DNA of 35,289 bases, from the IMG/VR virus record IMGVR_UViG_3300027976_000109, positions 1-35,289 of that record; one strand, given 5' to 3'. The notes under the pieces are model-generated. The model was not told where the DNA came from, did no database searches, and was given only the letters and a program-made list of their open reading frames with translations. Each line of letters starts with the position of its first letter. The stretch's first letter is position 1. Shown here piece after piece: positions 6,301 to 35,025 of this stretch. Both the position numbers and the translations under genes were made by a program. The DNA is from a virus.

Positions 6301-6719
6301 AAACAGTGAGAGAATTAGTACTTATAGTTACTGCAATGAGTTTACTTTTTATATTAGCCTCAGCTGCTGATGATGATGAAGATTTAAAAAATAGTACTAT
6401 TTATAATCATGTTTACTATCAATTAATAAGATTAAAATCAGAAACTATACAATATTATCCTATTGTTGGATGGAAAGAAGGAATGAGATTACTACAATCT
6501 CCTACAGCAGCTACTAATACTTTGAAAAAAATAGGAATTTTTGCAGATCAATTTTTTCTTACTTGGAGTGAAGATAAATTAACTTATCAAAGAGATACAG
6601 GTGTTTGGGAAAAAGGAGATAATAAATCATGGGCTTATTTTCTAAAATTAATAGGATTTTCAGGTAATAATTTTAATCCAGAAGAATCTATTAAATCATA
6701 CGAATCTCTTACTAGATAA
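3333..6719 (+). CDS. Large polyvalent-type phage protein with C-terminal membrane segment
   Basis: This 1128-residue protein starts at an ATG that overlaps the stop of the preceding giant gene by 7 nt. It opens with a short CPNKSSKEWK segment followed by an acidic linker, then a long, largely helical, Lys/Asn-rich body with no enzyme motif I can name. Near residues 990-1010 lies one strongly hydrophobic stretch (LVLIVTAMSLLFILA) followed at once by an acidic run, which looks like a single membrane segment. Large size, pairing with the upstream metallopeptidase-like giant and a late membrane-active stretch fit an ejected internal virion protein that crosses or docks at the host membrane. It is the last + strand gene before the convergent early region. 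Coding status is certain from length; the role is inference. Confidence 0.65.
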   Translation: MLGCPNKSSKEWKEILKKANGVKSEAIKLWNKTYPENENINPLDTAEETESVEDIIGEESDIEDKSTDFKNLIDNIKIYLHKQLAILKKKVVTNQTAKQLGIENTIKKLENLDDVAGIDEFITIAYNDSIKVKKRYAKFIKNKDTLPRKEAIKELMAIYEYASSYNMLDEISILNKESFLNSNDNEIKDSLGKFTPQYKLSQALTIRNYIQESFEEEGIPLMADYLWQFKGGYESKNLEQQIKYYQDKINTLKSTPGSSKRELANATLSLETVLSLKLDKKGLENLLKQALRDESTLDYLIGPLISSPDAVLALFAKSVKYQLEKARLVTLKTRDLIMDKFDAYEKINSKSKSNPKEFNEGIYELLETKLIKEDGTEETVLRPAFVQKYDYNGYTKARNNFFNSNPKPTGKQIGLWLQQNKQPKPKAERDEIINEKKRLLEAKVITDSEYALWLNSVTNTNFQGEITYNRELSEPSDKWINNKWLDLYTKDGIPKNVKGELHKINLDTYLEDQKLLPKTSRPGYFLPYVPKTDWERATENTIGSTIKRIISDKLTTQVYDVGSVLNNTDQQTIVNPLEEGDEGFTFKDSNEKTSLTSLGGQEVKFIPTYFIQKIDVNDISLDVTRSVLLFHQMAQNYNAINEISGETAMLKTIVKKRKVVETTSSGENILDAFAKKYNIKKYINKSETSNSEKHLDAFIDMVVYGEMSKIEKYGSIDFAKITDTLIGYSAISGLALDPMKAVANGVQGNIQLIIEAASGQYFNSRNLANGKLNYKLGAAFLRDFGKTRPVTLEGQLAELYDAMQGEFKDEYGRKVTQAAFLRLFNTNSLFAMMHAVEHEIQITTMFALMDAEKVIDNVTNKEMSLFEAHKKYGKDGVIENTNFTEKKQFDFTNRLHAINKSLQGVYNDFDKSTAQRLSVGRLLLMYRKHMYPAYMRRFKSFSYDYEADDITQGFYRTFWNTLVKDVFLYRKNIIKEWSNYTPYQKSQINKTVRELVLIVTAMSLLFILASAADDDEDLKNSTIYNHVYYQLIRLKSETIQYYPIVGWKEGMRLLQSPTAATNTLKKIGIFADQFFLTWSEDKLTYQRDTGVWEKGDNKSWAYFLKLIGFSGNNFNPEESIKSYESLTR

Positions 6720-8732: not shown

Positions 8733-9794
8733 TTAAAAAAAGTCTACTGCTAAATCAGAATCTAAATCAGAATCACTTAAATCAAAATCAGTATTGTTTG
8801 TTAATGTTTGTGGCATACTTAAATCAGCATCTTTAGCATCTACTGTATTACCATAATATAATTCTTCATTAAATAATTCTTCATTAAATAATTCTATATC
8901 TTCAATTGTAGGTGTTAAAGAAAGTGTTTCATTTTTAGGAATTGTAGGTTCTAATACTGTAGGGTCATTTGTAAGTTCAGCAATTTGATTTACTTGATTT
9001 TCAGGTTGACCATAATTACTTAAAAGTTTATCTACTATAATAACTTCTGGTTCTAAAGGTACAATTTCAACTTCTATTTTAGTAAAATTAGCAATAATAG
9101 TTATAAAATAGTGTAATAATCTTTGATCTTCCATCCATGTTTTAGGATGAGAATTTTGTAAAGCTACTGTAATATAATTATAAAAAGTCCATAAAGTATC
9201 AGGATTAGGAAAAATAGGATTAGCTGTTGTCATTAATCTTTTTACTAAACTAGCTTGATCTATACTAAGAATATCATATTCAGCAAATAATACTCCTAAT
9301 AATTGAGATTGTTTTCTTAAATTTATATTAATACCTTCCATTGATGCTTTATCAGAACACAATTGATTATAGTAAGAATAAGCATTATCAATATAATTAT
9401 TAATAATATTACTACTTTCTATATCTGCTTTTCCAGTATGTTTTCTAATCCAAGTATTTATATCACCTAATATCATAGAAGCTCCTGTATTATTAATACA
9501 AGCTCCTACTACACATTTAAATTTTACTTGTTTATTATAACTGTTAGTCCATGCAAGCATCATAGATAATTCAGGATCTGTATTAAAATGTAATTTATAA
9601 ATTCCTTGTGCAATTTGTCCATCTGAAGTTGCTCTATATTCTTCTGACATTATTATAAATCCTTTTTCAGTAAGAGCTTTACGACAATGTTCTATTACAA
9701 ATTCATGTGAAATAACAGTGTAACTAGGTTTATGCTCTGGAAGACTTACATTTATTAAGTCTGCTTTAGTAATTAATTTTATTTTTTTAGGCAT
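8733..9794 (-). CDS. DUF932-like phage protein
   Basis: I take the ATG at 9794 (353 aa); a TTG six bases upstream would add two residues. The start overlaps the stop of the DNA polymerase gene by 8 nt, so the pair is translationally coupled. Residues about 80-130 (AWTNSYNK...FKCVVGACINNTGASMILGD...WIRKHTG) and about 200-235 (TLWTFYNYITVALQNSHPKTWMEDQ) resemble the DUF932-like proteins common in phages and plasmids, whose biochemistry is unsettled. The C-terminal 100 residues are acidic and low-complexity, with an LFNEE repeat and a DLSDSDLDSDL tail, possibly a protein-interaction tail. Coupling to the polymerase suggests a replication-linked role, which is inference. Confidence 0.55.
   Translation of the reverse strand: MPKKIKLITKADLINVSLPEHKPSYTVISHEFVIEHCRKALTEKGFIIMSEEYRATSDGQIAQGIYKLHFNTDPELSMMLAWTNSYNKQVKFKCVVGACINNTGASMILGDINTWIRKHTGKADIESSNIINNYIDNAYSYYNQLCSDKASMEGININLRKQSQLLGVLFAEYDILSIDQASLVKRLMTTANPIFPNPDTLWTFYNYITVALQNSHPKTWMEDQRLLHYFITIIANFTKIEVEIVPLEPEVIIVDKLLSNYGQPENQVNQIAELTNDPTVLEPTIPKNETLSLTPTIEDIELFNEELFNEELYYGNTVDAKDADLSMPQTLTNNTDFDLSDSDLDSDLAVDFF
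8861..8895. repeat. 15-bp tandem repeat inside the DUF932-like gene
   Basis: Two and a third copies of a 15-bp unit, in frame, encoding repeated LFNEE in the acidic tail. It could vary in copy number by slippage. Confidence 0.7.
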
Positions 9795-11736
9795 TATCAA
9801 ATAATTTAAATTGATTAATAATTGGTTCTATGTTTTGTATTTCTTGTTTTATTTTTTTTAAATAAAAATCATAATTAATATTATATTCAGAAAATTCTTT
9901 TTCTTTATGGTTAATATATACAGTTTGCATCCATCTACTAGCCTCTACTTGAATAGTTTTTTTAGTAGATTTATTCACTTTTATTATTTTACTTCCTGAA
10001 TTAGAAATAAAATATCTAATAGTGTTTTGTAATTTGTTTATTTTATATTCATTTTTGACTACAAAATGTTCTTCAAAAGCCCAATCACCTTTAATTTTTA
10101 CACCACCACAATAATCAAATATATTTTGATTTTCTTTTAAAAAAGTTTCAGGATCAATATCATTTACAAAATAATTAAAAATAGCTTTTGGTATAATTAA
10201 AAAACTTTTATTTTTATGTAAATGAGTGTATTTATGATTTGCAAGATCTTCCCATTCAAATCTACCTTTACATTTATAATTACCATCTGTATAAATACTT
10301 ATGTAATTATTAATATCCCAAACATACATTGCTTTATAATCAGCAAATTCTAAAGTTAACTTTGTTATTTTTTCCCAATTTTTACAAATTGATTCATAAA
10401 TATTTACATATTTTTTTGAAAAATATAGAGTAGCACCATCTGTATTTGTTTGTAGTAATTTAGCTTCTGGTATATTTATTAATAAATCTTCTACTAACAT
10501 TGTAATAAGAAGTTGACCATTAATAGTTGTTTCCATAGCATAACTACTATCAAAAAGCCAAGAATATTCACTATTACTATTACCAAATGCCGCATTGCTG
10601 GCTTCCTTAAACCCTTCTATAATAGCCATATCTTTATCAGCTTTAGGTTTAACTTTTTCTGCCAATCTTACGTCTACAAGATCATTTTTATATACTTTAA
10701 AAAATTCTTTTCCTAAATGTTCTGGATACATTTCATTTACACAAGCAATACTAGGGTATAGAGAGGCAACATCTAGGTCTTTAATAATAAATTCATCATC
10801 TGCTTTATATACTCCACTTTTAATACATTGATGAATACCTCCTGAACCATAATAAAAAGTAAACCCTTTAAATTGTGCTGTATATTCAAAATCATTTTTA
10901 GTATTATAAATTATTTTTGTTTTGAGCATTTCAAAAAAACTGATAAAAGGAGCAGATTGAAATTTAAAGTATGGAAATAATATTTTACCAATGTCTATAC
11001 TATCTCTATAAGTTCTATATTTTTTTACTTCAAAAGGATTTTTACCTGTGGCATCACAATATAATTTTAAAAGTAATTCACTACCTAGTTTAGTATTAGA
11101 ATAATTGTAACAATTCAAACCATATTTATTCTTAATAGTAGTTCTTACATTAAGCAATGGTTTTGATAAATGTAATATTTTTTTAGTAGATTTAACATCA
11201 TTGATACAGTAATCAATTATCATAGGTATTTGATCAGATGTAACGCATTCTGTATGAGAAATAGGCATGTCTTGAATGGTTGGGTAATCCATACTAAATT
11301 GAATCCATTTAAGAGAACTTTTCTTAGCTTGATTATCCCAATGATTAATTTTAAAAACATCAATTTGTTGAATGCTTAATTTCCATTCTGGAAAATCAGA
11401 ATATTCATTATTTCTAGATTTTTCAATTGTATCTTGTGCTTTACCATAAATCCATTTTGCAACATCTTGTCCTTTCATTAAAGATAAATAATTTGCATTT
11501 TTAAGAATATGTTCTGTAATTTGACTATCAAAAGATATTCCATTATAACTTACATGCCATTCATCAAATGCAATATTTACTTTTAAAAAAGTTAAAAATT
11601 CTTGTAAATCATTTTTACTTTCATGTATTACAAAGGTTCTTGTTTTTTCAGAATTAACAGCTTCAAAGACACCTATAAAACAGTTAGATAAAGTTTCAAA
11701 ATCCATAACCCAGTGGGTTCTTATATGATTTTCCAT
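9787..11736 (-). CDS. Family B DNA polymerase with 3'-5' exonuclease domain
   Basis: A compact 649-aa replicative polymerase. Exonuclease motifs: Exo I D12-F-E14, Exo II with N65 and D70 (SYNGISFD), Exo III Y176...D180 (YCIND). A GSGG linker motif lies near residues 297-300. Polymerase motif A is D322-VASLYPS, motif B is K377xxxN381xxxG385 (KEASNAAFG), motif C is N431-T-D433-G434. Motif C therefore has Asn where most family members have the first Asp; NTDG variants are common among small phage PolBs and the essential second Asp is kept. Only about 45 residues separate motifs A and B, so the fingers are very short. The ATG at 11736 lies 21 nt past a terminator-like hairpin. It presumably copies the phage genome with the primase, helicase and SSB genes upstream. 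Confidence 0.93.
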   Translation of the reverse strand: MENHIRTHWVMDFETLSNCFIGVFEAVNSEKTRTFVIHESKNDLQEFLTFLKVNIAFDEWHVSYNGISFDSQITEHILKNANYLSLMKGQDVAKWIYGKAQDTIEKSRNNEYSDFPEWKLSIQQIDVFKINHWDNQAKKSSLKWIQFSMDYPTIQDMPISHTECVTSDQIPMIIDYCINDVKSTKKILHLSKPLLNVRTTIKNKYGLNCYNYSNTKLGSELLLKLYCDATGKNPFEVKKYRTYRDSIDIGKILFPYFKFQSAPFISFFEMLKTKIIYNTKNDFEYTAQFKGFTFYYGSGGIHQCIKSGVYKADDEFIIKDLDVASLYPSIACVNEMYPEHLGKEFFKVYKNDLVDVRLAEKVKPKADKDMAIIEGFKEASNAAFGNSNSEYSWLFDSSYAMETTINGQLLITMLVEDLLINIPEAKLLQTNTDGATLYFSKKYVNIYESICKNWEKITKLTLEFADYKAMYVWDINNYISIYTDGNYKCKGRFEWEDLANHKYTHLHKNKSFLIIPKAIFNYFVNDIDPETFLKENQNIFDYCGGVKIKGDWAFEEHFVVKNEYKINKLQNTIRYFISNSGSKIIKVNKSTKKTIQVEASRWMQTVYINHKEKEFSEYNINYDFYLKKIKQEIQNIEPIINQFKLFDNA

Positions 11737-11757
11737 AATTTATTTTTATTAACAAAA

Positions 11758-11784
11758 AAAAGAGTGCTTATTAAACACTCTTTT
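11758..11784 (-). terminator. Terminator-like hairpin upstream of the DNA polymerase gene
   Basis: A 9-bp perfect stem (AAAAGAGTG with CACTCTTTT), 9-nt loop, then a run of eight U on the minus strand. It lies 25 nt past the stop of the 11810 gene and 21 nt before the polymerase ATG, leaving almost no room for a promoter in between. Confidence 0.75.
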
Positions 11785-11809
11785 ACAATTAAAATTAAAA
11801 TTATATCTT

Positions 11810-12157
11810 TTATTTATCCATAAAAGTTTTATAATCAAATTTTAAAAAATTAGCTGCAAATAAACCAAGTAAACTTTCAATAGCAGTATTATCTTCAATA
11901 TAAAATTCTTGAAATACTTCTGTTTTATGTCTATCTTGTTTCATACCTTTTGTTCCAGTAATTGCTATACCATATTCATCTAATTTAGGCAACATGTGAA
12001 GTGTTGTTTTTTTAATAGTTGATATAATTACTAATACTTTAGTAGTAGGATCAAAAATACATTCTACATAAGGACAATGTTCCGTAATAGGAATCATTCT
12101 AAAAGTTTGTTGTTCATTCCAGGTAGCCTGAACTAACATCATTGATTTTTCATTCAT
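11810..12157 (-). CDS. Conserved unknown protein, 115 aa
   Basis: ATG at 12157, overlapping the upstream gene's end by 8 nt. The protein is beta-rich at its N-terminus (TWNEQQTFRMIPITEHCPYVECIFD, here split around the CPYVE turn) with a C-terminal helix. It has the look of a conserved Bacteroidota-phage family, but I know no function. It closes the block that carries the MoxR ATPase and the VWA/metallopeptidase protein, and coupling suggests common expression with them. Confidence 0.6.
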   Translation of the reverse strand: MNEKSMMLVQATWNEQQTFRMIPITEHCPYVECIFDPTTKVLVIISTIKKTTLHMLPKLDEYGIAITGTKGMKQDRHKTEVFQEFYIEDNTAIESLLGLFAANFLKFDYKTFMDK

Positions 12158-12737
12158 AATTTGGTTTTAAATCACAAAGATAATCCACTTGTTTTAAAGT
12201 AGGTCTTTTAATTAATAAAATTTCTTTATTTAAATCTGGTATAGTACATAATTCACCTACTTCTTCAAGTAATTCTGGATTTACTCCTAAAAGTTTAGCA
12301 TAATTACCGTAGTAAACTTCAGGATATAAGTAACTTGAAATATATATTTTATTAGCCATGTTGTTTTTAAAATAACTTAATATTTTTTGTTTTAAAACAG
12401 GGTTTATTTTACTATATTTTCCAGTAACAATATAATTCCAATCTTTACTTAAATCAGAAAAGTCAAATACATATACACTTGTAGTACTATCTATTTTATG
12501 GTAATCATATAATCTGTTATGTTTTAATAATATATTTTTTTCAAAATTTATATATGTTGTCATATTAGGAGTATGGTAAACACATATTAATTTTAGGTCT
12601 TCATTACTATACACATTATCCCAAGAGAAATAAGTTTCTAATGGTTTAAAAGTGCATTCTGAATGAATATTTAAAAGAGGGTATAAAAATATCTTAGATT
12701 TTTGAAAATATTTTTTATAAAGAGAATTTATTATCAT
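12150..12737 (-). CDS. Conserved unknown protein, 195 aa
   Basis: ATG at 12737, 1 nt past the upstream stop. Mixed alpha/beta, rich in Tyr and Lys. The C-terminal part (YLYPEVYYGNYAKLLGVNPELLEEVGELCTIPDL, here only cited as a region at about residues 135-170) is the most structured and reads like a helical domain. No catalytic motif seen. It lies between two other unknowns downstream of the MoxR/VWA pair, making it a candidate partner of that module. Confidence 0.6.
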   Translation of the reverse strand: MIINSLYKKYFQKSKIFLYPLLNIHSECTFKPLETYFSWDNVYSNEDLKLICVYHTPNMTTYINFEKNILLKHNRLYDYHKIDSTTSVYVFDFSDLSKDWNYIVTGKYSKINPVLKQKILSYFKNNMANKIYISSYLYPEVYYGNYAKLLGVNPELLEEVGELCTIPDLNKEILLIKRPTLKQVDYLCDLKPNYE

Positions 12738-12738
12738 T

Positions 12739-13764
12739 TTAAAATGTATAAGTATAATTAGTACCTAAATCTGTTAATAGATCTTCATTAAGAGTGATTG
12801 TTTTTACTATAAAAGTATTCGTTGCAATTGAATTTGTAATTTCATGTTTTATATGAGGTATTATAATATCTAAATTGGTAGTATTAAATTGATTTTTTAA
12901 TTTTAGTAAAAAAATTAAAAAGTCTTTATCTAAATTTATTTTATGATTTAACCCCATGCAATATAAAAAATATGCAAAATCAACATTTTTAAGATTATCA
13001 CTATAATAAATAGCATCTCTATTAAGATGTAGTAATAATAGTAAATAAGCATAACTAGCTGAATAATTACAATTAGTCATTACAGACATTGCCAATGATA
13101 AATCTTGTTTACTATTAAACATCAGAGTTAGCTGATCATAACTTTCTTTATTAATTATTATACTATCAGTAGTTGTTAAATATTCAGATAAATCAGATTC
13201 ATCATATATAGGCTTATCTATAATAAAATCTAATAATTCTTCACAATCACTGTGAGGAGAACAAAAATTAATACTGTCATAATCAACATTTAACTTTCTA
13301 TTTAGCATATCCATTAAATAATAATCTATAAACAAAGCTTCTTCTTTATAATCATTTAAAAATGTTGATATTCTTATACTATCAGGGTGACTTTTAAATA
13401 TATCTAGAGTAATAAATTTTTTAAAAATTTCAGTATTAACTTGATAATATTTATAATTATGCACTATTGAGTTTAGACTAAGATTATTACAAATTATAAT
13501 ATTAGATTCTTTAAACTTTTTTGTAACATTAATATTTTCATTAGTACAAATATTTTTAAGTTTATTTCTAGGAATAATAACTTTTGGTAATAAATATAAA
13601 ATGTCTGTTTTTGAAGGTTTATAAACAGTAGAAATTTTAAAAATTTTTTGAAAGTCTTTTTCATACCATCCTGTTAAAAATGATGCATTAAAAATAACAT
13701 CTTTATGTAACTTTATATAAGTATTACGTAAATTACTGCTAATATATAAAATTGTAGTTTTCAT
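12739..13764 (-). CDS. Unknown protein, 341 aa, next to MoxR ATPase
   Basis: ATG at 13764, 14 nt past the ATPase stop. A Lys/Asn/Tyr-rich, mainly helical protein with a Leu-rich stretch near residues 240-250 (YAYLLLLLHL) too polar around it to be a clear membrane helix. No family recognised. Its place directly after the AAA+ gene in a tight operon makes it a plausible substrate, adaptor or effector of the MoxR-VWA machine; this is inference from context alone. Confidence 0.6.
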   Translation of the reverse strand: MKTTILYISSNLRNTYIKLHKDVIFNASFLTGWYEKDFQKIFKISTVYKPSKTDILYLLPKVIIPRNKLKNICTNENINVTKKFKESNIIICNNLSLNSIVHNYKYYQVNTEIFKKFITLDIFKSHPDSIRISTFLNDYKEEALFIDYYLMDMLNRKLNVDYDSINFCSPHSDCEELLDFIIDKPIYDESDLSEYLTTTDSIIINKESYDQLTLMFNSKQDLSLAMSVMTNCNYSASYAYLLLLLHLNRDAIYYSDNLKNVDFAYFLYCMGLNHKINLDKDFLIFLLKLKNQFNTTNLDIIIPHIKHEITNSIATNTFIVKTITLNEDLLTDLGTNYTYTF

Positions 13765-13778
13765 ATTTTATATTTAAA

Positions 13779-14966
13779 TTATTGAACTGATATTTTTAAA
13801 ACTTCTGTATTTGACATTAATTTTGAAAATTTAGCTTTATTTTTATTAACAAGTTCTCTTATAATGTAGTATTTTAAATCATTAGTAAAAAGATTAGGGT
13901 TACTGATTAAAACAATAATTCTTTTAATCATATCTTCAGAAACTACATTAGTAGCAGCAAATAAAACACAATAATTAATAAGTCTTGTTACTATAACACT
14001 TGCTATATCAACTCTATAATCTTTTTCAACACCTATTAAAGAAGTTAAAATGTTTACTACTTGAGATTCTTCTTTTTCAAAAATAGCTCTTGGAGAAATG
14101 ATTTTATCTAATTTATTATTAATAAACATTGTAATCATAGATGTAAATTCAATACCTACAGAGCCTTCTCCTATCATTTGAATTAATGGTAATTTTTCAT
14201 TAAAATTAGAAATAGAACTAATAGAATCAAAGAATTTAGTAATAATCCTGGGATTAACTGTTTTAGTTACTAATTCAGGGTTCATTATTAAAAAATTAAT
14301 TAACCTATTATCCATACCTGTTTTCTCAGCCCATTTAGACCATACATTAACATCAAATTTAAAATTTACAGAAATGTATCTAGTTTGTTGAGCTAAATCT
14401 TGACTATTAACCATGTAATTTCCATCATCAGGGTTTTGAGAAAGAATTATTGTCCAATTTTTAGGTAATTTCCAAGAAATATATTCTTGTCTATCTATAA
14501 TTTCCATAGCAGCTGTAATAAATCTTGAATCTGCTCTATTAAAATCATCAAAAAAGAGAATCCCATTCTCTGATTTACCTTGTATCCATTCTGGAACTGC
14601 ATAAGACATTCTTTTCCCTATAATTTTATATCCTTTTTTAATAGCAGTTTCAATTTGTTGTTCAATAATCCAAGTAGTTTTACCTTCTGAATTTTCAATT
14701 TGAAATTCTTTTATATTAAAACCTACTAAATCACCTATTTCTTCTAATTGACTAAGGTTAATTTTAACTAATTGTAAATCAAGTTCTTTAGCAAGTTCTA
14801 TAATACTTGATGTTTTACCTATTCCTGCTTCTCCCATTACATTAATACTAACAGGAATTTTACCTTGTTTTTGTATAAAATTATTATTGCTAATCATGTG
14901 TTTTAAAAACACTTTAAGTTCTTCTGAATTTAATTCAACTTGATTACTTGCTTTTTTTTGACTCAT
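13779..14966 (-). CDS. MoxR-type AAA+ ATPase (copy 1)
   Basis: A 395-aa AAA+ protein. Walker A is G45-EAGIGK-T52, Walker B with the MoxR-type tail is ILFFDDFNRAD (residues 136-146), and sensor 1 is N178 in SQNPD. Ordering and spacing match the MoxR/RavA/CobS class, which are hexameric unfoldases or activators that work with VWA-domain partners to remodel proteins or insert metals. The partner gene (VWA plus HExxH) lies immediately upstream. The ATG at 14966 follows an A-rich leader. The second Walker B acidic residue is Asp (FFDD) rather than the usual Glu (DE), a conservative change that may slow hydrolysis. Class assignment is firm, the target unknown. Confidence 0.88.
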   Translation of the reverse strand: MSQKKASNQVELNSEELKVFLKHMISNNNFIQKQGKIPVSINVMGEAGIGKTSSIIELAKELDLQLVKINLSQLEEIGDLVGFNIKEFQIENSEGKTTWIIEQQIETAIKKGYKIIGKRMSYAVPEWIQGKSENGILFFDDFNRADSRFITAAMEIIDRQEYISWKLPKNWTIILSQNPDDGNYMVNSQDLAQQTRYISVNFKFDVNVWSKWAEKTGMDNRLINFLIMNPELVTKTVNPRIITKFFDSISSISNFNEKLPLIQMIGEGSVGIEFTSMITMFINNKLDKIISPRAIFEKEESQVVNILTSLIGVEKDYRVDIASVIVTRLINYCVLFAATNVVSEDMIKRIIVLISNPNLFTNDLKYYIIRELVNKNKAKFSKLMSNTEVLKISVQ

Positions 14967-14998
14967 TGTTTTTAAAATTTAAATTTTTAAGTAAATGT

Positions 14999-16294
14999 TT
15001 ACATTTCAAGTTTAATTACAAATCCCGGAAGATTTTTATTCATACTTGATCTTTCAGATAATACCCATAATATTTTACCTTTAGGTTTTATAGGAGGATT
15101 ACATTCTCCATCAGTAAAATATATCAAACTTGTATATTTGTTATAATTATCATTATAATATTCTATAACAGGATTAAATTTTGTTCCTCCTCTACCATAA
15201 ACAGTAAGTTCAAAATCTCCTTTATAAGGTTTAATAGATTGTATTATAGAATCACATTGTATTATGGTAATTTCAACACCTAATTTATAAATATGATGTA
15301 TTTCATTCATAAATTCTGTTAATTCAGAAGTTGTTACAGAACCACTTGTATCAATTGCTAATAATAAATGTGATTTCTTTTTAATTTTAAGACCTAAATT
15401 ATCTGGAAATTTTGTATTTTCTTTTCTTCTACTTTGTTTAGTATAGACTTTTGTATTAACACCTGTAAATTTTCTAATATATCCTTTCCAATCAAATTTA
15501 GGAGGAGTAATTTCAGCAATTACTATTAAACCTTCTATTTCATTAGGAACAATCCCTTTAGATTTAAGAGTTTGTTCCTTAGCATCAGTTAATAATTTTT
15601 GGGTTTGTGCAATAATTAATTTTGTTTCAGCTTCTGTTAAGTTTTCAAATTCTTTCCAAGTACCATGTTGAGGAATATTATTATTAGCAATATCTTCTAA
15701 AAGATTATCTAAAGCTTCATTATTAGTTGTACCATTAAGACTTTTTTCTTTTTCAGCTTCTATAAGTTTATTATAGTAGTATTTAGTACCTGCTTTAGCA
15801 TCCCAACCTCTATCAACATAATCTTCAAACATTATTCCTCTACATGGAATTTTAGATTTTTCTATTAATATTTCTTCATTTGTTAAATTACCTTTCTGTA
15901 TAGCAGTAGTAACTTTATTTACAATATTAATATATTGATCAAAAGATAATTCATCTCCTGGTAGTAAACCTTTGTCAATCAGTTGATTAATCTCCATATC
16001 CATAGCAACATTAGCAATTTTATGATTACTAAATTGAGTATAAGAAGTTAAATGTCCAAAAGCTATATGAAGAACTTCGTGAAGAAGAATACCTATTCTA
16101 TGATTATCAGTAAGACTAAGCCAAAAAGATTCATTAATTTCTAATTGATAATTAATATCTAATTTACTAACTCCTGCTGTATCTAATTCAGTACTCCATT
16201 TTTTATTTAATCCTATTAAAAATATTCCGTAATAACATTTAGTAATAATAAGATTTTTAATTGCTTTGCTTAAATATGTTTCTTTAATATTCAT
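14999..16294 (-). CDS. VWA-domain protein with HExxH metallopeptidase-like domain (DUF2201-like)
   Basis: I choose the ATG at 16294 (431 aa, 4 nt after the upstream stop); the frame extends to 16435 but that extension overlaps the upstream gene by over 130 nt. The N-terminal domain has HEVLHIAFGH at residues 72-81, an HExxHxxxxH zinc site, followed by a helix with MDMEIN, as in the DUF2201/VWA-like metallopeptidase family. A linker leads to a C-terminal VWA domain with a complete MIDAS: D315-TSGS, T371 (GRGGT) and D395 (FTDGE). Such proteins pair with MoxR AAA+ ATPases, and the ATPase is the next gene. It probably binds a client through the metal site while the ATPase drives remodelling. Proteolysis itself is unproven. 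Confidence 0.85.
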   Translation of the reverse strand: MNIKETYLSKAIKNLIITKCYYGIFLIGLNKKWSTELDTAGVSKLDINYQLEINESFWLSLTDNHRIGILLHEVLHIAFGHLTSYTQFSNHKIANVAMDMEINQLIDKGLLPGDELSFDQYINIVNKVTTAIQKGNLTNEEILIEKSKIPCRGIMFEDYVDRGWDAKAGTKYYYNKLIEAEKEKSLNGTTNNEALDNLLEDIANNNIPQHGTWKEFENLTEAETKLIIAQTQKLLTDAKEQTLKSKGIVPNEIEGLIVIAEITPPKFDWKGYIRKFTGVNTKVYTKQSRRKENTKFPDNLGLKIKKKSHLLLAIDTSGSVTTSELTEFMNEIHHIYKLGVEITIIQCDSIIQSIKPYKGDFELTVYGRGGTKFNPVIEYYNDNYNKYTSLIYFTDGECNPPIKPKGKILWVLSERSSMNKNLPGFVIKLEM

Positions 16295-16298
16295 ATAT

Positions 16299-16502
16299 TT
16301 ATAATTCTCTACATGAAATATCCCACCAGTAATCTTTCCCCTGTTCTTTTGGAGTTTCTTCCCAAATAAAAGCAGTTCCAATAAAAGTAGAGAAAGTGGT
16401 TTTTTCCTCCATTCTTTTTTCAAAATAAAGATCATTTTCTTTGAATTGTTTTTGTTCTAACTCACTTAAAGTGTCAAACCACTCTTTGCCTGTCTTTTTC
16501 AT
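16299..16502 (-). CDS. Small unknown protein, 67 aa
   Basis: ATG at 16502 (MKKTGKEWFDTLSELEQKQF), overlapping the upstream gene by 29 nt, with its stop 4 nt before the VWA gene's ATG. Amphipathic N-terminal helix, Trp/Glu-rich C-terminus. No family recognised. Confidence 0.55.
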   Translation of the reverse strand: MKKTGKEWFDTLSELEQKQFKENDLYFEKRMEEKTTFSTFIGTAFIWEETPKEQGKDYWWDISCREL

Positions 16503-16713
16503 CGTTATCTTTTAAATAAGTTTTATATAATGCTATTCCTATTGCCCAATATCCCCAATTTAAGGCTAAACCGTAAACAAATCCTGTATTATCTATTTCC
16601 GTTTTATCTACTGTTGCAAACACTAAACACGGTGTAATTGCAAAATCTAAATCTTTCGGGCTTTCTTTTACTCCATTTATATAAAATGGTGTAAGTTTAT
16701 ATTTTGTTTTCAT
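16474..16713 (-). CDS. Small unknown protein, 79 aa
   Basis: ATG at 16713. The N-terminus reads as strands (KYKLTPFYINGVKE), then an apolar stretch GFVYGLALNWGYWAIGIAL around residues 43-62 that could be a membrane segment or a buried sheet, and a charged tail. No function recognised. Confidence 0.5.
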   Translation of the reverse strand: MKTKYKLTPFYINGVKESPKDLDFAITPCLVFATVDKTEIDNTGFVYGLALNWGYWAIGIALYKTYLKDNDEKDRQRVV

Positions 16714-16722
16714 AATTATAAT

Positions 16723-17040
16723 TTAATTTTTAACAAATACTTTTTGAACTTGATAAGTTCCTGGTATTAATTCTTTAATTCCTTCTTCAGCTTCTGGATA
16801 AGTATTATATTCTTTTTTTAAAAGAGTTAATTTTTCTTCTGCATTAAATATTGTTTTCATGTTATTTGGTTGAACAGAAGGTACAGTTAAGTTGTTAATA
16901 AAAACTTTAATTCCCAATAATGTTTTAGCTCTGGTTTTAGCTACAGTTCTATCTTTTTTTGTAAGAGTGTGCCATTCTGAAAATTCAATTCGTATGTTGT
17001 TTAATTCTTCGTCTAAATAGTTTTCTAATTCTTCTTTCAT
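16723..17040 (-). CDS. Unknown protein, 105 aa
   Basis: ATG at 17040, 2 nt after the upstream stop. Helical and charged from the start (MKEELENYLDEELNNIRIEF), with a second helical region around residues 68-90. No known domain recognised. Probably co-translated with the GIY-YIG gene. Confidence 0.55.
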   Translation of the reverse strand: MKEELENYLDEELNNIRIEFSEWHTLTKKDRTVAKTRAKTLLGIKVFINNLTVPSVQPNNMKTIFNAEEKLTLLKKEYNTYPEAEEGIKELIPGTYQVQKVFVKN

Positions 17041-17042
17041 GT

Positions 17043-17477
17043 TTATATTTTTAAATTGTTTCTAAAAAAACGTCCTAAAATATTAGAATTTAAATATTTA
17101 TCATCTGTAATACAATCATTACAAAATAAAAATTTACATTCCTGATAAGTTAATTCTGATGTTGAATAACAAATCATTAATATTTCTTTTTTAATTATAA
17201 TACCTGACTTATGAGCACTTTTAAGTACTTCATTACTACTGTAGTAATTTATAAAATTAGGTTTTATCACTCTACTATACTTTTTAACTCTTTTATCAGT
17301 ACTTAAAAGCAATTGCTTTTTAGTAAAATGTTTTTTTGTATTAGAATAAAAGTTCTTTTTACCTATATAAGCCACTGATTTACCATCTATAATAGCAGTC
17401 ATTATATATATGAACCCTACACTATTTTCTGGAATACATAATTCAGTAAATTCTTTTCCTTTATAAATCCAACTCAT
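17043..17477 (-). CDS. GIY-YIG endonuclease, SegE-like
   Basis: A 144-aa protein with the GIY-YIG order: GFIY at residues 21-24, AYIGKKNF from residue 36, NYYSSNEVL near 78-85 (the family's 'YYGSS' region), a catalytic-type Glu at 113 (TYQECKFLF) and a conserved Asn in YLNSNI. This matches the phage SegE-like group of free-standing nucleases, often homing endonucleases. The ATG overlaps the primase stop as ATGA, so it is coupled to the primase rather than sitting in a spacer like a recent invader. It could be a domesticated nuclease acting in recombination or host DNA attack; which one is not decidable. Confidence 0.78.
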   Translation of the reverse strand: MSWIYKGKEFTELCIPENSVGFIYIMTAIIDGKSVAYIGKKNFYSNTKKHFTKKQLLLSTDKRVKKYSRVIKPNFINYYSSNEVLKSAHKSGIIIKKEILMICYSTSELTYQECKFLFCNDCITDDKYLNSNILGRFFRNNLKI

Positions 17478-18472
17478 ATTACATTTTTTAATAATTGAAA
17501 TAATTGTAATTTAACAGTATGTTCTGTATGTACTTTAATAGAATCAGATAAATCTTTTTCTAAAGGTAAAATGATGTAATCAATGTTATATTTAGACTTA
17601 TACTGTTTAGCAGCTTTAACACCTGGAATATCATTATCAAATAAAACTATAATTTTAGAATATTTTAATAGTAATTGTTTCATTTGTACTTCATTTATCA
17701 TGCTGTTTTCACTATCAGGAGCAATACTTTCAATGTTTTGGATGTTAAGGTTGTTAAAACAAATTAAGTCTTTAAGAGAAGATGTTATAATTAAATATTT
17801 AGTACTATAAGTAAGTTGTTCAAAACCTTGTAAATAATTCTTAATTTTTATAAACTTTTTAGCTGTATTATCAGGCATGTAAATTTTATATAAATCACCA
17901 TTTTTTGTAAAATACCCATAAAGTTTATTTCTATTAAACTCATATTTAATTATATTACCATTCAAATCTTTTTTTTCCATATTAAAAAAAGAAAGTGGTT
18001 TTATTTCATAATGACCTAAGTTAAAAGAACTTATCTTGTATTGTTTCCAATAATTAAAATCTATTGTATTCCAGAATCTAATCTCATAATCAGTTACTTT
18101 AAATCTATCTTGTTTAACTATATTAAGTTTATTTTGTAAACTATTATTGTTTAAATCACTATTTTTTAAATAATTTTCATAATCAGTCATTATTTTAAAT
18201 ACAGCATCACCTCTACTATTTAAAGAAAATAATACTTTAACTAATTCAATATGATCTCCTCCTTCACCAGTTGAAAAATCTTTAAATCTGTATTGATTGC
18301 TTTTATCATCATAATAAACCCACATTGAAGGGGTTTTATCAGCACTATTAAATACTGATGATATTTTTACATTTTGACCTATTAAATTTTCATATAAATT
18401 AAGATAATGTTCAAAAACCCATTGTTTAGAAACATCTCTTAAATCACTAATAATATTTACAGTACTAATCAT
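17474..18472 (-). CDS. DnaG-type primase with zinc-less N-terminus and Toprim domain
   Basis: A 332-aa protein. The N-terminal 80 residues keep the CHC2-like fold pattern (ADKTPSMWV..., FKDFSTGEGGD) but no zinc-binding Cys/His set. The C-terminal Toprim domain has FDND at 278-281 followed by PGVKAAK, and PLEKDLSD at 303-310. The first Toprim motif is TSSLKD (230-235), where most members have a Glu, so the usual catalytic Glu is absent; I recall similar 'SLKD' forms from related phage primases. It should make primers for the phage polymerase together with the DnaB-like helicase. ATG at 18472 lies 16 nt after a terminator-like hairpin. The 3' end overlaps the GIY-YIG gene by 4 nt. Confidence 0.85.
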   Translation of the reverse strand: MISTVNIISDLRDVSKQWVFEHYLNLYENLIGQNVKISSVFNSADKTPSMWVYYDDKSNQYRFKDFSTGEGGDHIELVKVLFSLNSRGDAVFKIMTDYENYLKNSDLNNNSLQNKLNIVKQDRFKVTDYEIRFWNTIDFNYWKQYKISSFNLGHYEIKPLSFFNMEKKDLNGNIIKYEFNRNKLYGYFTKNGDLYKIYMPDNTAKKFIKIKNYLQGFEQLTYSTKYLIITSSLKDLICFNNLNIQNIESIAPDSENSMINEVQMKQLLLKYSKIIVLFDNDIPGVKAAKQYKSKYNIDYIILPLEKDLSDSIKVHTEHTVKLQLFQLLKNVI

Positions 18473-18488
18473 AATGTCTTATTAAAAA

Positions 18489-18513
18489 AAAGGGTCTATA
18501 TACTAGACCCTTT
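18489..18513 (-). terminator. Terminator-like hairpin between SSB-like and primase genes
   Basis: A 10-bp perfect stem (AAAGGGTCTA with TAGACCCTTT), 5-nt loop, then a U-rich run on the minus strand. It lies 13 nt after the SSB-like stop and 16 nt before the primase ATG. Confidence 0.8.
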
Positions 18514-18526
18514 CATATTAAAATTA

Positions 18527-19198
18527 TTAATCTAAACTAAAATCAGAATTTATTTTAGAAGGAATGTTTAAGTTATCATCCCCAAAACTTTTTAAATCTT
18601 TAACTTCTGTTTTTTTCAAATGAATAGATTCATTATATACAATTACTTTTGATTCTTCACCAAAAGCATATTTACCTTTTTCACTTTTAGGTAAATACAT
18701 GTCATAATTTAAATACCCTGTTTTACCCATGTATTCTTTACCTGAAATACAAAAAGTAAGATATTTATTTTTAAAATCAGCTGTTTTATTAAAAGCTTCA
18801 ACAAAACTTTCAATTGTATTATGTTTATTATCTTGGTCTTTCATCCAATCATTTAATCCTAAAGCATTAGTAAGGTTTTGTAAAAATAACAAAACACTTC
18901 TATCTCTTTGAATTTTAATTCCTGTTTTAGTTTCTCCATCTGCATAAGCATATTGACTAGCTTTTAACCTACCAATTTGACCTTTGTAGTTACCTAAACT
19001 AACATTATCTCTATCAATTAAAAAGCCTTCAAAGCCTTCAATTGGTTCTGTTTCTACATGTAAAATCAAATGTTTAGCATTTGGAATAAAAGTAAAATCT
19101 TCTAATTCCAATCTGTTAATTTTTAATTTTAAATTACCTGGTGTAATTGTTTTAGGAACTCCTGCTCCACCGCCCAAATCTGTTGTACTTAATCCCAT
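18527..19198 (-). CDS. Probable single-stranded DNA-binding protein
   Basis: A 223-aa protein. The N-terminus is a Gly-rich leader, then a run of beta strands (GNLKLKINRLELEDFTF, HLILHVETEPIEGFEGFLID) of OB-fold appearance, and it ends in an acidic, phenylalanine-containing tail (NSDFSLD) typical of SSB C-terminal tips that recruit partners. It sits directly downstream of the Sak4-like ATPase, and such ATPases usually act with an SSB. The start codon is preceded by four to five AAAT repeats and no Shine-Dalgarno. The assignment rests on architecture and context, not on a clear motif. Confidence 0.55.
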   Translation of the reverse strand: MGLSTTDLGGGAGVPKTITPGNLKLKINRLELEDFTFIPNAKHLILHVETEPIEGFEGFLIDRDNVSLGNYKGQIGRLKASQYAYADGETKTGIKIQRDRSVLLFLQNLTNALGLNDWMKDQDNKHNTIESFVEAFNKTADFKNKYLTFCISGKEYMGKTGYLNYDMYLPKSEKGKYAFGEESKVIVYNESIHLKKTEVKDLKSFGDDNLNIPSKINSDFSLD

Positions 19199-19213
19199 TT
19201 TTTATTTATTTAT

Positions 19214-19933
19214 TTATTTGAATATTTGATCCCAATTTGTTGTAAGAATACCATCTACAACTTCTGTAATTATAAAGTCTTTATCACCTAAATGAAGAGG
19301 TCTAGCACCACAATTTACTTCTTCACTTGTTTTGAACGATAGTATTGTTTTACCTTCTTTTCTCATCATATAACCAATAGCATCAGAAGAAGCACATAAT
19401 AGATTTTTAATTTTTCCTGTAAGATCTATATTTGCTGCTAATACTAATTCACCTTTATCATTTACTTGAGCATCTTTAGTATGTCCACATAAAATAACTG
19501 TTTCAGCAAGAGTATCTATAAAATCTAATACTTGAAAAAAAGCAAGTCTTATGTACATATAACCAGCTCCTTGAGGAAGTGTTAATACAGAATCTCCTTC
19601 AAAATTTTTACCTAAAGGAGTATTTTTATAAAGTTTTAAAGCCAATGGTAATACCATATCTTCTAATACACTTACTGTATCTATACTAATAAATTTATAA
19701 GGATTACCTTGATTTCTGATTTCTTTTCCTAAATCTAGTAATTCTTGTAAATTATTAACTTTATATTTAATTGCTTCAATAAAATCAGAACCATTTTCTA
19801 AATCAACAATCAGATTGTTTTCAAGACCTGCTAATGCAGTGCTTTTACCTACTTTAGGTTTACCGTAAATCACTATTCTTTTAGGATTTAAACGAGTAAC
19901 TTTAACTTTCTTAATGGGAAGTACTATACTCAT
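19214..19933 (-). CDS. Sak4-like RecA-fold ATPase (AAA_24)
   Basis: A 239-aa single-domain P-loop protein. Walker A is G24-KPKVGK-S31, a Walker B-type strand is FISIDTVS (D85), and the later VILCGHTKD and ANIDLTGKIKNLL segments match AAA_24/Sak4 proteins, short RecA/Rad51 relatives of phages that promote strand annealing or invasion with an SSB. It overlaps the upstream gene as ATGA and is followed by the SSB-like gene, which fits that pairing. Confidence 0.8.
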   Translation of the reverse strand: MSIVLPIKKVKVTRLNPKRIVIYGKPKVGKSTALAGLENNLIVDLENGSDFIEAIKYKVNNLQELLDLGKEIRNQGNPYKFISIDTVSVLEDMVLPLALKLYKNTPLGKNFEGDSVLTLPQGAGYMYIRLAFFQVLDFIDTLAETVILCGHTKDAQVNDKGELVLAANIDLTGKIKNLLCASSDAIGYMMRKEGKTILSFKTSEEVNCGARPLHLGDKDFIITEVVDGILTTNWDQIFK

Positions 19934-20580
19934 AATTTACTTGTTATTTGTATGATTAAATCATTTAACCATTTTTTGTCACTAACTGGTGCTTTTAACA
20001 TAATTGCAGCAAAATCTTTAATTTTCATATTACTAATTAAATCATTTTCTGAATCATCTTTTGTATCAAAAGTTGACAGAGGTGAATATTCTTTTTCAAA
20101 ATCAGGAAAAATACCTGTTGTTTGTACTTTAGGAGCAAGATTTATTTCTAATAAATCAATACTTTTTTGTCTTTCGTATGTAGAATAAGTCATTTCTGAA
20201 CCATTTTTAGATACAGCTATTATTTCTGATAATGGAATAAGATAAGAAATATAAGGTTCTCCTGTTGAAGAAACATTTTCTTTTGTATCATACTCATCTT
20301 TATAAAAAGGATTACATTTAACTTTGAATAATTGTCTGTTAGGACTATCTGGAATCATATCTATAATTTTTCCACCATCTACTAAATTATCATACAATTC
20401 AATATAAATATCTTCATGTTTTTTTAATTCAGAATCAAAGAATTGAACTTGTTTTCCTAAAGATCCTCTTTGAAAAAAAGCTGTTTTAATCATAAATAAT
20501 GGATTTGTTAATCCTAATATTTTAAATACAGGTTTATGGTGTATAAAAAATTCTTCTTCTTTTTGTTTTTTAATGCTCAT
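19930..20580 (-). CDS. Unknown protein, 216 aa, in the replication/recombination operon
   Basis: ATG at 20580. N-terminal two-thirds mixed alpha/beta (FKILGLTNPLFMIKTAFFQ), then an acidic linker and a C-terminal helical segment (MKIKDFAAIMLKAPVSDKKW). It lies between the DnaB-like helicase (9 nt gap) and the Sak4-like ATPase (4-nt overlap), so it is probably a replication or recombination accessory protein. No family recognised. Confidence 0.65.
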   Translation of the reverse strand: MSIKKQKEEEFFIHHKPVFKILGLTNPLFMIKTAFFQRGSLGKQVQFFDSELKKHEDIYIELYDNLVDGGKIIDMIPDSPNRQLFKVKCNPFYKDEYDTKENVSSTGEPYISYLIPLSEIIAVSKNGSEMTYSTYERQKSIDLLEINLAPKVQTTGIFPDFEKEYSPLSTFDTKDDSENDLISNMKIKDFAAIMLKAPVSDKKWLNDLIIQITSKL

Positions 20581-20589
20581 TGTGTGTAT

Positions 20590-21591
20590 TTAATATGAGA
20601 TTTTTTTTGTTGCTTGAGCAGGAGTGTCAATTTCAATAATACGCATTGTTGTCCTATCTAATTTAAAAAAACTAATTCTTGTTGTACCATTTCTAGATTT
20701 TAAAAAGTGAAATACTAAAATATCTTCATCATTTATTATAAATCTTTCTGGACCATACTGTCTAATTTTTCTTATAGAAGGTTTATTAATACCTATTAAA
20801 ACATCGGTGTGTTGTAAAAGTGCATCACTTCCATATATATCGGAATCTAACACATAATTTCCATATTCACCATCTCGTTGTCTATCTGGATTATCTATAT
20901 TTCTGTTAAGTTGACTTAATACTATAAAAGCAATTGGATATTTTTTTTTCATCATTGTTAAGGCTTCTCCTAAAGACCCTAACATTTCAAATTTATCTCT
21001 TTGACCTTTACCAACTCTAAATAATGCGGCATGATCTATTGCTACTAACATGTTAGTATATGTACCATCTTCTGATTTATGTTTTTCCATTTCATAATGA
21101 ATAGTAGCACACATTTCATCAACAGTACAAGCATCATATATCACATTAATTTTGTCATTAAATTTAGTATTTTCATAAAACTCAACACATTTATCATAAA
21201 TCTTTTTATCAACTAATTTTCCATCCTTACTCATTAATGTATTGTAATCAGTACTTGTATTCAGACTTAATTTTCTTACACCACTTGTTTCATCAACCAT
21301 TTCCATTTGGAATTTTAAAACTCTAAAATCTTCATTAGGATTGTGAACTATTATATCACTAATCAACTGTTCCATAAATAAAGTTTTTCCTGTTCCTGGT
21401 CTAGCACCTACTACAGTGATTGTTCTCCATTCTAATCCATCACAAAAAGCATCATTAAATTTAGCCCAAGCACTTTTTAATGATTTTATATCACCTTGTC
21501 GTCGAGCTTTTATTTTTAAAATTGCTTTTTTAAGAGCATCTCTTTCACTTACGGGTAATAGTGGTTGAGCACCATTAAATAATATTGTCAT
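20590..21591 (-). CDS. DnaB-like replicative helicase
   Basis: A 333-aa RecA-fold helicase. Walker A lies in VGARPGTGKT (residues 61-70), a Walker B-type strand is MLVAIDH (D186), followed by SQLNR (226-230) and SDIYGSDALLQHTD (250-263), the H3/H4 signature of DnaB-family helicases. The N-terminal primase-interaction domain of bacterial DnaB (about 470 aa overall) is absent; only about 50 residues precede the ATPase core. It should unwind DNA ahead of the polymerase. The upstream gene may encode its loader. Confidence 0.87.
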   Translation of the reverse strand: MTILFNGAQPLLPVSERDALKKAILKIKARRQGDIKSLKSAWAKFNDAFCDGLEWRTITVVGARPGTGKTLFMEQLISDIIVHNPNEDFRVLKFQMEMVDETSGVRKLSLNTSTDYNTLMSKDGKLVDKKIYDKCVEFYENTKFNDKINVIYDACTVDEMCATIHYEMEKHKSEDGTYTNMLVAIDHAALFRVGKGQRDKFEMLGSLGEALTMMKKKYPIAFIVLSQLNRNIDNPDRQRDGEYGNYVLDSDIYGSDALLQHTDVLIGINKPSIRKIRQYGPERFIINDEDILVFHFLKSRNGTTRISFFKLDRTTMRIIEIDTPAQATKKISY

Positions 21592-33792: not shown

Positions 33793-35025
33793 TTAAAAGC
33801 ATGTGTTAAAAAATGATTTTAAATAAAGAGTTTGTTTAGTAGATAATGTTTTATTTTTATTAGTATTATAAAATATCATCCATTCAGATACTACTTTATT
33901 TACTTTCCAGCATTTAAAATAGTTAATTATAGTCAATTCAAAAGATTCTATTGCTAAATCAGTTACTCCTACTGTAGTATCATCAGATTTTTCTAACCAA
34001 GTAAATAGTCTATTTCTAAACTTTTTAACTCCATTATAAGCTAAATCTTGCCATTTACCACCTTCAAAATAGTGATTAATAAACATTAAATTAATTTTAA
34101 GCAATTGAGGATCATAATTTTCAGGGCTAATAACATTGTTTTTACTCTTACTCATTTTTTCTCCATTTATTCCTAATATCATGCCTTGATGAACAACTTT
34201 TAAAAAAGGTTCATTAAAATCTATGTATCCTATGTCAAATAGAAATTTACATATAAATCTGGCATAAATTAAATGTTTAGTAGTATGTTCTATCCCTCCT
34301 ACATATAAATCAACAGGTCTTGATTTATCATATTCTATTGTATAAAAAGAACTATCTACAAAAGTATCTAAGGTATCTTCTTCTCCTTCAACAGGAATAG
34401 GACACCCCCATTTTCTTTGTCTACTTACACACCAATCTTGTAAATTATTTAACCAATTAATTTGTATTTGTTTAGAACTAGAAGGATAGTCTACTAATTC
34501 TAAATCTTTAATTAATCTTTCTTTATAGTCAGTAATCTTAAAAAACCATTGATTTAATTCTTTTTCAATAACTTTATTTCCACACCTTTCACATTTATCA
34601 TGTTCAACTTGTTCATTTGCTAAAGTAGTTTCACAAGAATTACAATAAAATTGTTTTCTAATTGCTTTATATGCTAATCCATGTTCTAACAATTTATTAA
34701 ATAGCCACTGAGTTCTTAATTGATATTCTAAAGAATGAGTAGATAATTTATTAATCCAACTTGTATTCATTATTTCCATTTGATTTTCAAAAGATATAAT
34801 ATTTAATTCAGTTGTTTCTAAACAAGATTTACCTATTTTTTTAGCATAATTTTCAGTAGGAAGTCCAAAACTATCATACCCAAATGGTTGAAATACAGAA
34901 TATCCTAAATGTTTTTGTAATTTACAATAAGAATCTACAATACTATAATTATAGTAATGACCTATATGTAATTTTTCACCACTAGGATATGGAAACATTA
35001 CTGTTATGTATTTATTGGGTGTCAT
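33793..35025 (-). CDS. Minimal leucyl-tRNA synthetase lacking the CP1 editing domain
   Basis: A 410-aa class I synthetase of the LeuRS type; bacterial LeuRS is about 860 aa. The Rossmann core is intact: HIGH at 20-23, GYDSFGLPTENYA (49-61), a zinc-finger-type CNSC...CERC (128-148) with LNQWFFKI, DWCVSRQRKWGCPIP (197-211), VDSSFYT, VGGIEHTTKHLIYARF, and KMSKS at 290-294. Between NWL (about 190-192) and NNLQDWCVSRQ, where LeuRS normally inserts the roughly 180-residue CP1 editing domain, nothing is inserted. The leucine-specific insert before KMSKS and most of the C-terminal tRNA-binding region are also missing. It may charge Leu without proofreading, or act on a special substrate. Confidence 0.88.
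   Translation of the reverse strand: MTPNKYITVMFPYPSGEKLHIGHYYNYSIVDSYCKLQKHLGYSVFQPFGYDSFGLPTENYAKKIGKSCLETTELNIISFENQMEIMNTSWINKLSTHSLEYQLRTQWLFNKLLEHGLAYKAIRKQFYCNSCETTLANEQVEHDKCERCGNKVIEKELNQWFFKITDYKERLIKDLELVDYPSSSKQIQINWLNNLQDWCVSRQRKWGCPIPVEGEEDTLDTFVDSSFYTIEYDKSRPVDLYVGGIEHTTKHLIYARFICKFLFDIGYIDFNEPFLKVVHQGMILGINGEKMSKSKNNVISPENYDPQLLKINLMFINHYFEGGKWQDLAYNGVKKFRNRLFTWLEKSDDTTVGVTDLAIESFELTIINYFKCWKVNKVVSEWMIFYNTNKNKTLSTKQTLYLKSFFNTCF

Follow-up and report, generated by a model that had tools for sequence, protein, structure and literature searches.

The question raised by this locus is whether a phage leucyl-tRNA synthetase (LeuRS) of only 410 aa, with no sign of the editing domain of its cellular counterparts, still charges tRNA, and why a phage would keep such an enzyme. 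The window (the whole stretch of viral DNA that was analyzed, 35,289 nucleotides of IMG/VR record IMGVR_UViG_3300027976_000109) is a 35 kb fragment of its own genome and, like all phage sequences used here, is metagenomic. At one end of the window (1–6719, + strand), two consecutive ORFs of ~1100 aa have no PHROG match at E <= 0.001 and lie on the strand opposite most other window genes; a replication block at 8733–21591 (− strand) encodes a DNA polymerase (phrog_1252), an HNH endonuclease-family protein, an AAA ATPase, a Toprim primase, a Sak4-like annealing protein, and a DnaB-like helicase. The features of the synthetase gene are as follows.

33793–35025, − strand: CP1-less leucyl-tRNA synthetase gene, 410 aa (ORF, TIGR00396, AF2, Foldseek)
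34957–34968, − strand: HIGH motif, class I signature 1, H20–H23 (sequence)
34582–34644, − strand: ZN1 zinc finger, CxxC..CxxC, C128/C131/C145/C148 (sequence)
34438–34452, − strand: CP1 junction LNNLQ, the site of the ~190-residue editing domain in ordinary LeuRS (alignment)
34405–34437, − strand: DWCVSRQRKWG (197–207), where the second Rossmann half begins (alignment)
34273–34302, − strand: VGGIEH...H (242–251), leucine-pocket motif, E246/H247/H251 (alignment)
34144–34158, − strand: KMSKS motif, class I signature 2, residues 290–294 (aligns with E. coli 619–623)
33796–34047, − strand: remnant of the alpha-helical bundle, residues 327–410 (AF2 helices 327–345, 359–371, 375–389, 396–409)

The ORF runs from ATG to TAA. 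That it might be the cut-short part of a longer gene was ruled out under the standard code, as its 3′ side holds a short AT-rich spacer and then an unrelated 81-aa ORF. The best profile for the protein is bacterial LeuRS TIGR00396 (300 bits, E=3.7e-89), well above the valS, ileS, and metG models; the match is broken into separate stretches and falls below the 548-bit full-length cut-off because entire domains are missing from the protein. The closest solved structures by sequence are also LeuRS, led by 5ah5 and 3ziu. An AlphaFold2 model built from 37 family members is confident along its full length (mean pLDDT 90.4, pTM 0.89), and its top Foldseek match is 3ziu, the CP1-less LeuRS of Mycoplasma mobile (TMq 0.91).

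The class I signatures HIGH and KMSKS are present in a Rossmann fold by sequence, AF2, and Foldseek alike, and the H, G, and H positions of HIGH are invariant across all aligned phage and bacterial homologs. Residues D197, W198, C199, S201–Q203, W206, and G207 are invariant in the 37-sequence phage alignment, and E246, H247, and H251, equivalent to E. coli E532, H533, and H537, are invariant in the main clade; ZN1 is near-invariant in that clade and missing from a few of its members and from a second lineage, that of L003. The leucine pocket matches E. coli at all nine positions compared (M40, Y43, D80, F493, S496, Y499, E532, H533, H537), with F in place of L at position 41, which is variable among bacteria. 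A preliminary description of this DNA had reported the HIGH, zinc finger, KMSKS, and VGGIEH motifs, and mapping these residues bears it out; nor are the catalytic residues degenerate, a prospect that it had raised, since those of the synthetic site are conserved. The protein is confirmed as a bacterial-type LeuRS with a leucine pocket and an intact synthetic site.

Aligned to E. coli LeuRS, the window protein has one residue in the CP1 interval (191 in E. coli, 11 in M. mobile), none in the ZN2-like stretch (48 in E. coli), four in the leucine-specific insert before KMSKS (47 in E. coli), and 117 after KMSKS (238 in E. coli). The window protein has no match to PF13603, the CP1 editing domain, or to PF08264, and the C-terminal tRNA-binding domain is absent. 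The counts agree with the earlier claim that CP1, the leucine-specific insert, and most of the C-terminal domain are gone from a 410-aa protein, and the evidence from profiles, structure, and family upholds its reading of a LeuRS pared down to the catalytic core and devoid of CP1 editing. By itself, a missing leucine-specific insert is unremarkable, since it is also absent from the LeuRS of Bacillus subtilis and M. mobile (PMC5059758), and CP1 is not strictly defining for bacterial-type LeuRS because M. mobile LeuRS is also without it. What is unusual here is the total loss of CP1 with a one-residue junction, together with the loss of the C-terminal domain.

This architecture is not confined to the window. 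Searches of IMG/VR and phage records recovered 44 further distinct phage LeuRS proteins. The largest of their contigs measures 608 kb, and two huge-phage genomes (634 and 735 kb, both sizes given as complete in PMC7162821) are also represented. All but one (43 of 44) are also CP1-less. The preliminary view of editing-free LeuRS as rare holds for cells, where M. mobile is the example, but in this phage group such enzymes are common. A single clade with support of 1.0 (FastTree) unites 40 proteins, including that of the window; a second, small lineage (L003, L055, L056, L057; 504–541 aa) is CP1-less as well, with the ZN2-like insert still present and a linker of 13 residues at the CP1 site; the placement of L053, a long branch, is uncertain. 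The bacterial sequences in the tree were picked by similarity to the phage clade, which puts the donor lineage and the monophyly of the two phage lineages beyond its reach. A five-residue junction of the ‘LENLH’ type (L-x-N-L-x) marks the CP1 site in 36 of the 44 phage proteins, and the compact architecture recurs across many metagenomes, in ~40 distinct contigs, as well as in two complete genomes that have been curated. Pairwise dN/dS within the family is 0.03–0.38, from which it follows that these genes are maintained by purifying selection. A search of the BFVD viral structure library turned up no comparable compact LeuRS, and the matches there are mostly giant-virus synthetases.

Two contigs carry a remnant of the compact gene (L059:6001-6272 and L060:6001-6272), in which an internal deletion has fused residues 5–64 to 365–395 and a stop is present; the compact gene can therefore be lost. 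Another contig carries an intact copy and, ~1 kb further downstream, a separate second ORF (L046:8192-8431) whose match is limited to the C-terminal helical part of compact LeuRS.

A close sister of the window LeuRS retains a compact form of the missing domain. This protein (L050, the same gene as L008; L050:5325-6920 on a 149 kb contig) is ~65–67% identical to the window protein on both flanks of its CP1 insert. Its CP1 interval of ~116 residues matches PF13603 in two pieces, retains equivalents of the E. coli editing residues T247, T248, T252, D342, R344, and D345, and is predicted, with moderate confidence, to adopt a mixed alpha/beta fold. L050 is nested within the CP1-less clade (UFBoot 99 with the window and L009). 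Its placement outside the other main-clade phages, as an early-branching intermediate in a single simple loss of CP1, was rejected (AU p=0.005). Its nested position therefore implies either several CP1 losses or one loss with regain in L050; the common L-x-N-L-x junction favors the latter, a putative history of one loss and one regain. An editing site is not known to serve anything but tRNA charging, and the presence of L050 is therefore an argument for tRNA charging by members of the family.

It is possible, in principle, for editing to be supplied in trans, and the preliminary description had named a separate editing-domain gene as a finding that would count against it. PF13603 was sought in more than 40 phage records. 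Apart from the gene of L050 itself, the matches examined were those in LR745206, G009, G016, and G046, which fall inside isoleucyl-tRNA synthetase (IleRS); three further records also gave matches. The PF13603-bearing IleRS proteins analyzed (735–859 aa) match the IleRS model nearly end to end. There is no PF13603 match outside IleRS in the complete 634 kb LR745206 and none at all in the 735 kb LR756501; no separate editing-domain gene was detected in either, and a split synthetase with its editing domain in trans is rejected for these complete relatives.

IleRS retains CP1 in phages whose LeuRS is CP1-less, and so serves as an internal control. LR745206, G016, and G009 also encode a valyl-tRNA synthetase (ValRS) of 443–516 aa from which CP1 is entirely gone:

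L089:12295-15809 (LR745206): CP1-less ValRS
L029:539-1909: CP1-less ValRS
L062:5905-7455: CP1-less ValRS

Two of these are of the PRK13208 type and one of the PRK05729 type, and because two ValRS types are affected, CP1 was probably lost twice in ValRS. A 457-aa MetRS-like gene adjoins the CP1-less ValRS of LR745206. Miniature class II proteins were also observed, two of them HisRS-like, at 211 and 206 aa (the normal model is 406), and one GlyRS-like, at 246 aa:

L105:7125-7760: miniature class II synthetase, HisRS-like
L453:14581-15201: miniature class II synthetase, HisRS-like
L106:8972-9712: miniature class II synthetase, GlyRS-like

A broader generalization, for which we would put the chances at slightly below even, is that large phages repeatedly trim synthetases to natural minimal enzymes: CP1 would have been lost at least once in LeuRS and in two ValRS types and kept in IleRS of the same genomes; HisRS and GlyRS would have been reduced to ~210–250 aa; and a compact but catalytically complete editing site is present in one LeuRS branch. 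This would leave these phages with a partly self-supplied, low-fidelity charging of leucine and valine, sometimes with their own tRNA-Leu set.

The tRNA genes around the phage LeuRS genes bear on what these enzymes do. Within 3 kb of LeuRS genes, 62 of 121 tRNAs are tRNA-Leu, compared with 25 of 225 (11%) across the four tRNA-bearing genomes that were read through. Clustering of LeuRS with tRNA-Leu exceeds label permutation in G013, G040, and LR756501 (p <= 2e-4) and is not significant in LR745206 (p=0.21). The enrichment of tRNA-Leu near LeuRS supports real leucylation, and the tRNA-Leu clusters, together with purifying selection, favor a translation role over a non-translation one. When a phage tRNA-Leu was looked for elsewhere, as suggested earlier, relatives often proved to carry clusters of 5–7 tRNA-Leu genes beside LeuRS, whereas the close relatives of the window carry none. 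The window itself has zero tRNA genes, and 264 bases upstream of LeuRS, on the side where clusters usually sit, the contig stops. Its three closest relatives (contigs of 72, 173, and 149 kb) have 0–2 tRNAs and no tRNA-Leu, and the more distant tRNA-poor relatives G032 and G017 have no tRNA-Leu either. The argument from tRNA-Leu clusters is therefore not directly applicable to the window and its closest relatives, and since the latter have no tRNA-Leu genes, the substrate in this branch is probably host tRNA-Leu. Codon use may be relevant here: the window has a GC content of 24%, leucine makes up 9.7% of codons in the ORFs counted, and TTA accounts for 69% of leucine codons, TTA-heavy coding that would fit a demand for charged tRNA-Leu(UAA).

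Some of the phage tRNA-Leu genes are themselves unusual, with 28 of 68 near LeuRS genes having a variable region of 4–7 nt and no long arm. These short-arm tRNA-Leu nearly all have A73 and occur beside normal long-arm tRNA-Leu, and the tRNA-Ser of the same loci are long-armed. Examples are found at the following positions.

L024:4797-5171: short-arm tRNA-Leu
L033:5374-8256: short-arm tRNA-Leu
L055:5679-5990: short-arm tRNA-Leu
IMG/VR pieces L120–L239: short-arm tRNA-Leu

This looked at first like co-evolution, the long variable arm of tRNA-Leu having been lost together with the C-terminal domain of LeuRS. The idea was dropped, because short-arm tRNA-Leu(UAA) is widespread among IMG/VR contigs and none of 120 contig pieces bearing it has a LeuRS nearby.

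The reading that best accommodates these observations, and one we consider likely, is that the gene encodes a working minimal LeuRS that does no post-transfer editing and that the phage retains in order to leucylate tRNA-Leu in the infected cell. Leucine activation and transfer would take place in the Rossmann core, where the residues are intact. The tRNA would be held by ZN1, the core, and the short helical bundle, so that leucine might reach tRNA-Leu through contacts with the acceptor end and core only, and with CP1 absent there is no post-transfer proofreading in cis. Charging could be weak, because the CP1 linker and the C-terminal tRNA-binding domain are both lacking. In tRNA-rich huge phages the substrate may be mainly the tRNA-Leu set that the phage itself encodes. 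A raised rate of the norvaline and isoleucine errors that editing normally removes would be tolerable in a short, burst-like infection, a 410-aa gene would be cheaper than one of 860 aa, and a TTA-heavy phage may place high demand on charged tRNA-Leu(UAA). In the phages with compact LeuRS, accuracy of translation seems to have been given up in exchange for a small enzyme. Extra charging capacity, tolerance of mistranslation, and evasion of defense, all put forward in the preliminary description, would be candidate reasons for keeping it.

Three other explanations were weighed. The enzyme may be kept as a replacement for a host LeuRS shut down by a defense system or inhibitor, the absence of CP1 conferring immunity to agents that act at the editing site. 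We consider this unlikely, though far from negligible, as the distinguishing cause; it overlaps with the preferred reading, being one reason to keep a working LeuRS. Such a role would suit phages that keep LeuRS without any tRNA-Leu; a search for further PF00133 or PF00587 synthetases in the closest relatives of the window came up empty, and there is a precedent for self-immunity in the agrocin-resistant LeuRS AgnB2 (PMC5059758). However, no LeuRS-directed defense or inhibitor was found in the sequence data, and the shrinkage of ValRS, HisRS, and GlyRS in some relatives points to general compaction rather than to one LeuRS-specific threat.

It is less probable still that the protein is a LeuRS paralog that makes leucyl-adenylate or binds tRNA-Leu without aminoacylation and acts in signaling, in peptide or carrier modification, or as a decoy against tRNA nucleases. 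Sulfolobus LeuRS-I, which activates leucine and binds tRNA without charging it (PMC9437257), illustrates such a state. It would be compatible with a protein that has no C-terminal tRNA-binding domain and an incomplete helical bundle, as well as with the lack of tRNA-Leu in relatives of the window. Yet conservation extends over HIGH, KMSKS, and the leucine pocket, where most positions do not vary in any of the 40 clade members; family members are located in tRNA-Leu clusters; and the editing site retained by the sister L050 would be useless without tRNA charging. Finally, a decaying gene, an assembly artifact, or a chimeric contig is a scarcely credible source of the missing domains, and is rejected: truly broken copies do exist (L059/L060), but the architecture recurs in ~40 contigs and two curated complete genomes, dN/dS is far below 1, and the AF2 model is confident throughout.

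To our knowledge, bacterial cells are regarded as needing LeuRS and ValRS editing almost universally, the loss of editing being known mainly in host-restricted parasites (Mycoplasma, microsporidia). In these phages editing loss is common, and the enzymes concerned are smaller than every natural LeuRS to which they could be matched here. Two questions follow: how little of a LeuRS suffices to charge tRNA-Leu when the CP1 linker and the C-terminal domain are gone, and whether lowered translation accuracy in its host is a gain or a cost to a virus.

Several elements of this picture are already known, including phage synthetases (PMC7162821), a CP1-less Mycoplasma LeuRS (PMC3834818), and the loss of editing in cellular parasites, which is documented (PMC11415595). 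The huge-phage survey counts as many as 15 synthetases in one phage, and its searched passages make no mention of missing editing domains (PMC7162821). We found no earlier report in the open-access literature of a phage-wide class of 410-aa LeuRS without CP1, linker, or C-terminal domain, or of a CP1-less phage ValRS beside a CP1-bearing phage IleRS.

Among characterized enzymes, M. mobile LeuRS (3ziu, TMq 0.91 with the window model) is similar to the window protein in being bacterial-type and in lacking CP1 (PMC3834818) and the leucine-specific insert. However, it is ~637 aa long and keeps a C-terminal region and an 11-residue linker, where the 410-aa window protein has one residue, and the phage-borne window LeuRS falls in a separate clade. 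In M. mobile LeuRS a nonapeptide is said to make up for the missing CP1 (Tan 2012, cited in PMC3834818); by that account, the compensating peptide at the CP1 site is absent from the window LeuRS, whose interval holds a single residue. E. coli LeuS shares the catalytic core and, residue for residue among those checked, the leucine pocket, and differs in CP1 (191 vs. 1) and in the region after KMSKS (238 vs. 117). Other phages offer parallels: the LeuRS of LR745206 (634 kb) is 422 aa, CP1-less, and 56% identical to that of the window, whereas that of LR756501 (735 kb), also CP1-less, ~504 aa, and beside five tRNA-Leu genes, belongs to the second lineage, with its ZN2-like insert and 13-residue CP1 linker retained. 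Although stripped of CP1 and the anticodon-binding domain, the LeuAC urzyme made from Pyrococcus horikoshii LeuRS still activates leucine and slowly charges tRNA-Leu, and direct, linker-free joins performed best in it (PMC9026127); charging by a minimal phage LeuRS is therefore chemically reasonable. LeuAC is engineered and ~130 aa long, whereas the phage LeuRS is natural, 410 aa, and carries ZN1 and part of the helical bundle. Engineered urzymes of this kind have natural counterparts in the compact phage LeuRS, which also offer small scaffolds for engineering synthetases.
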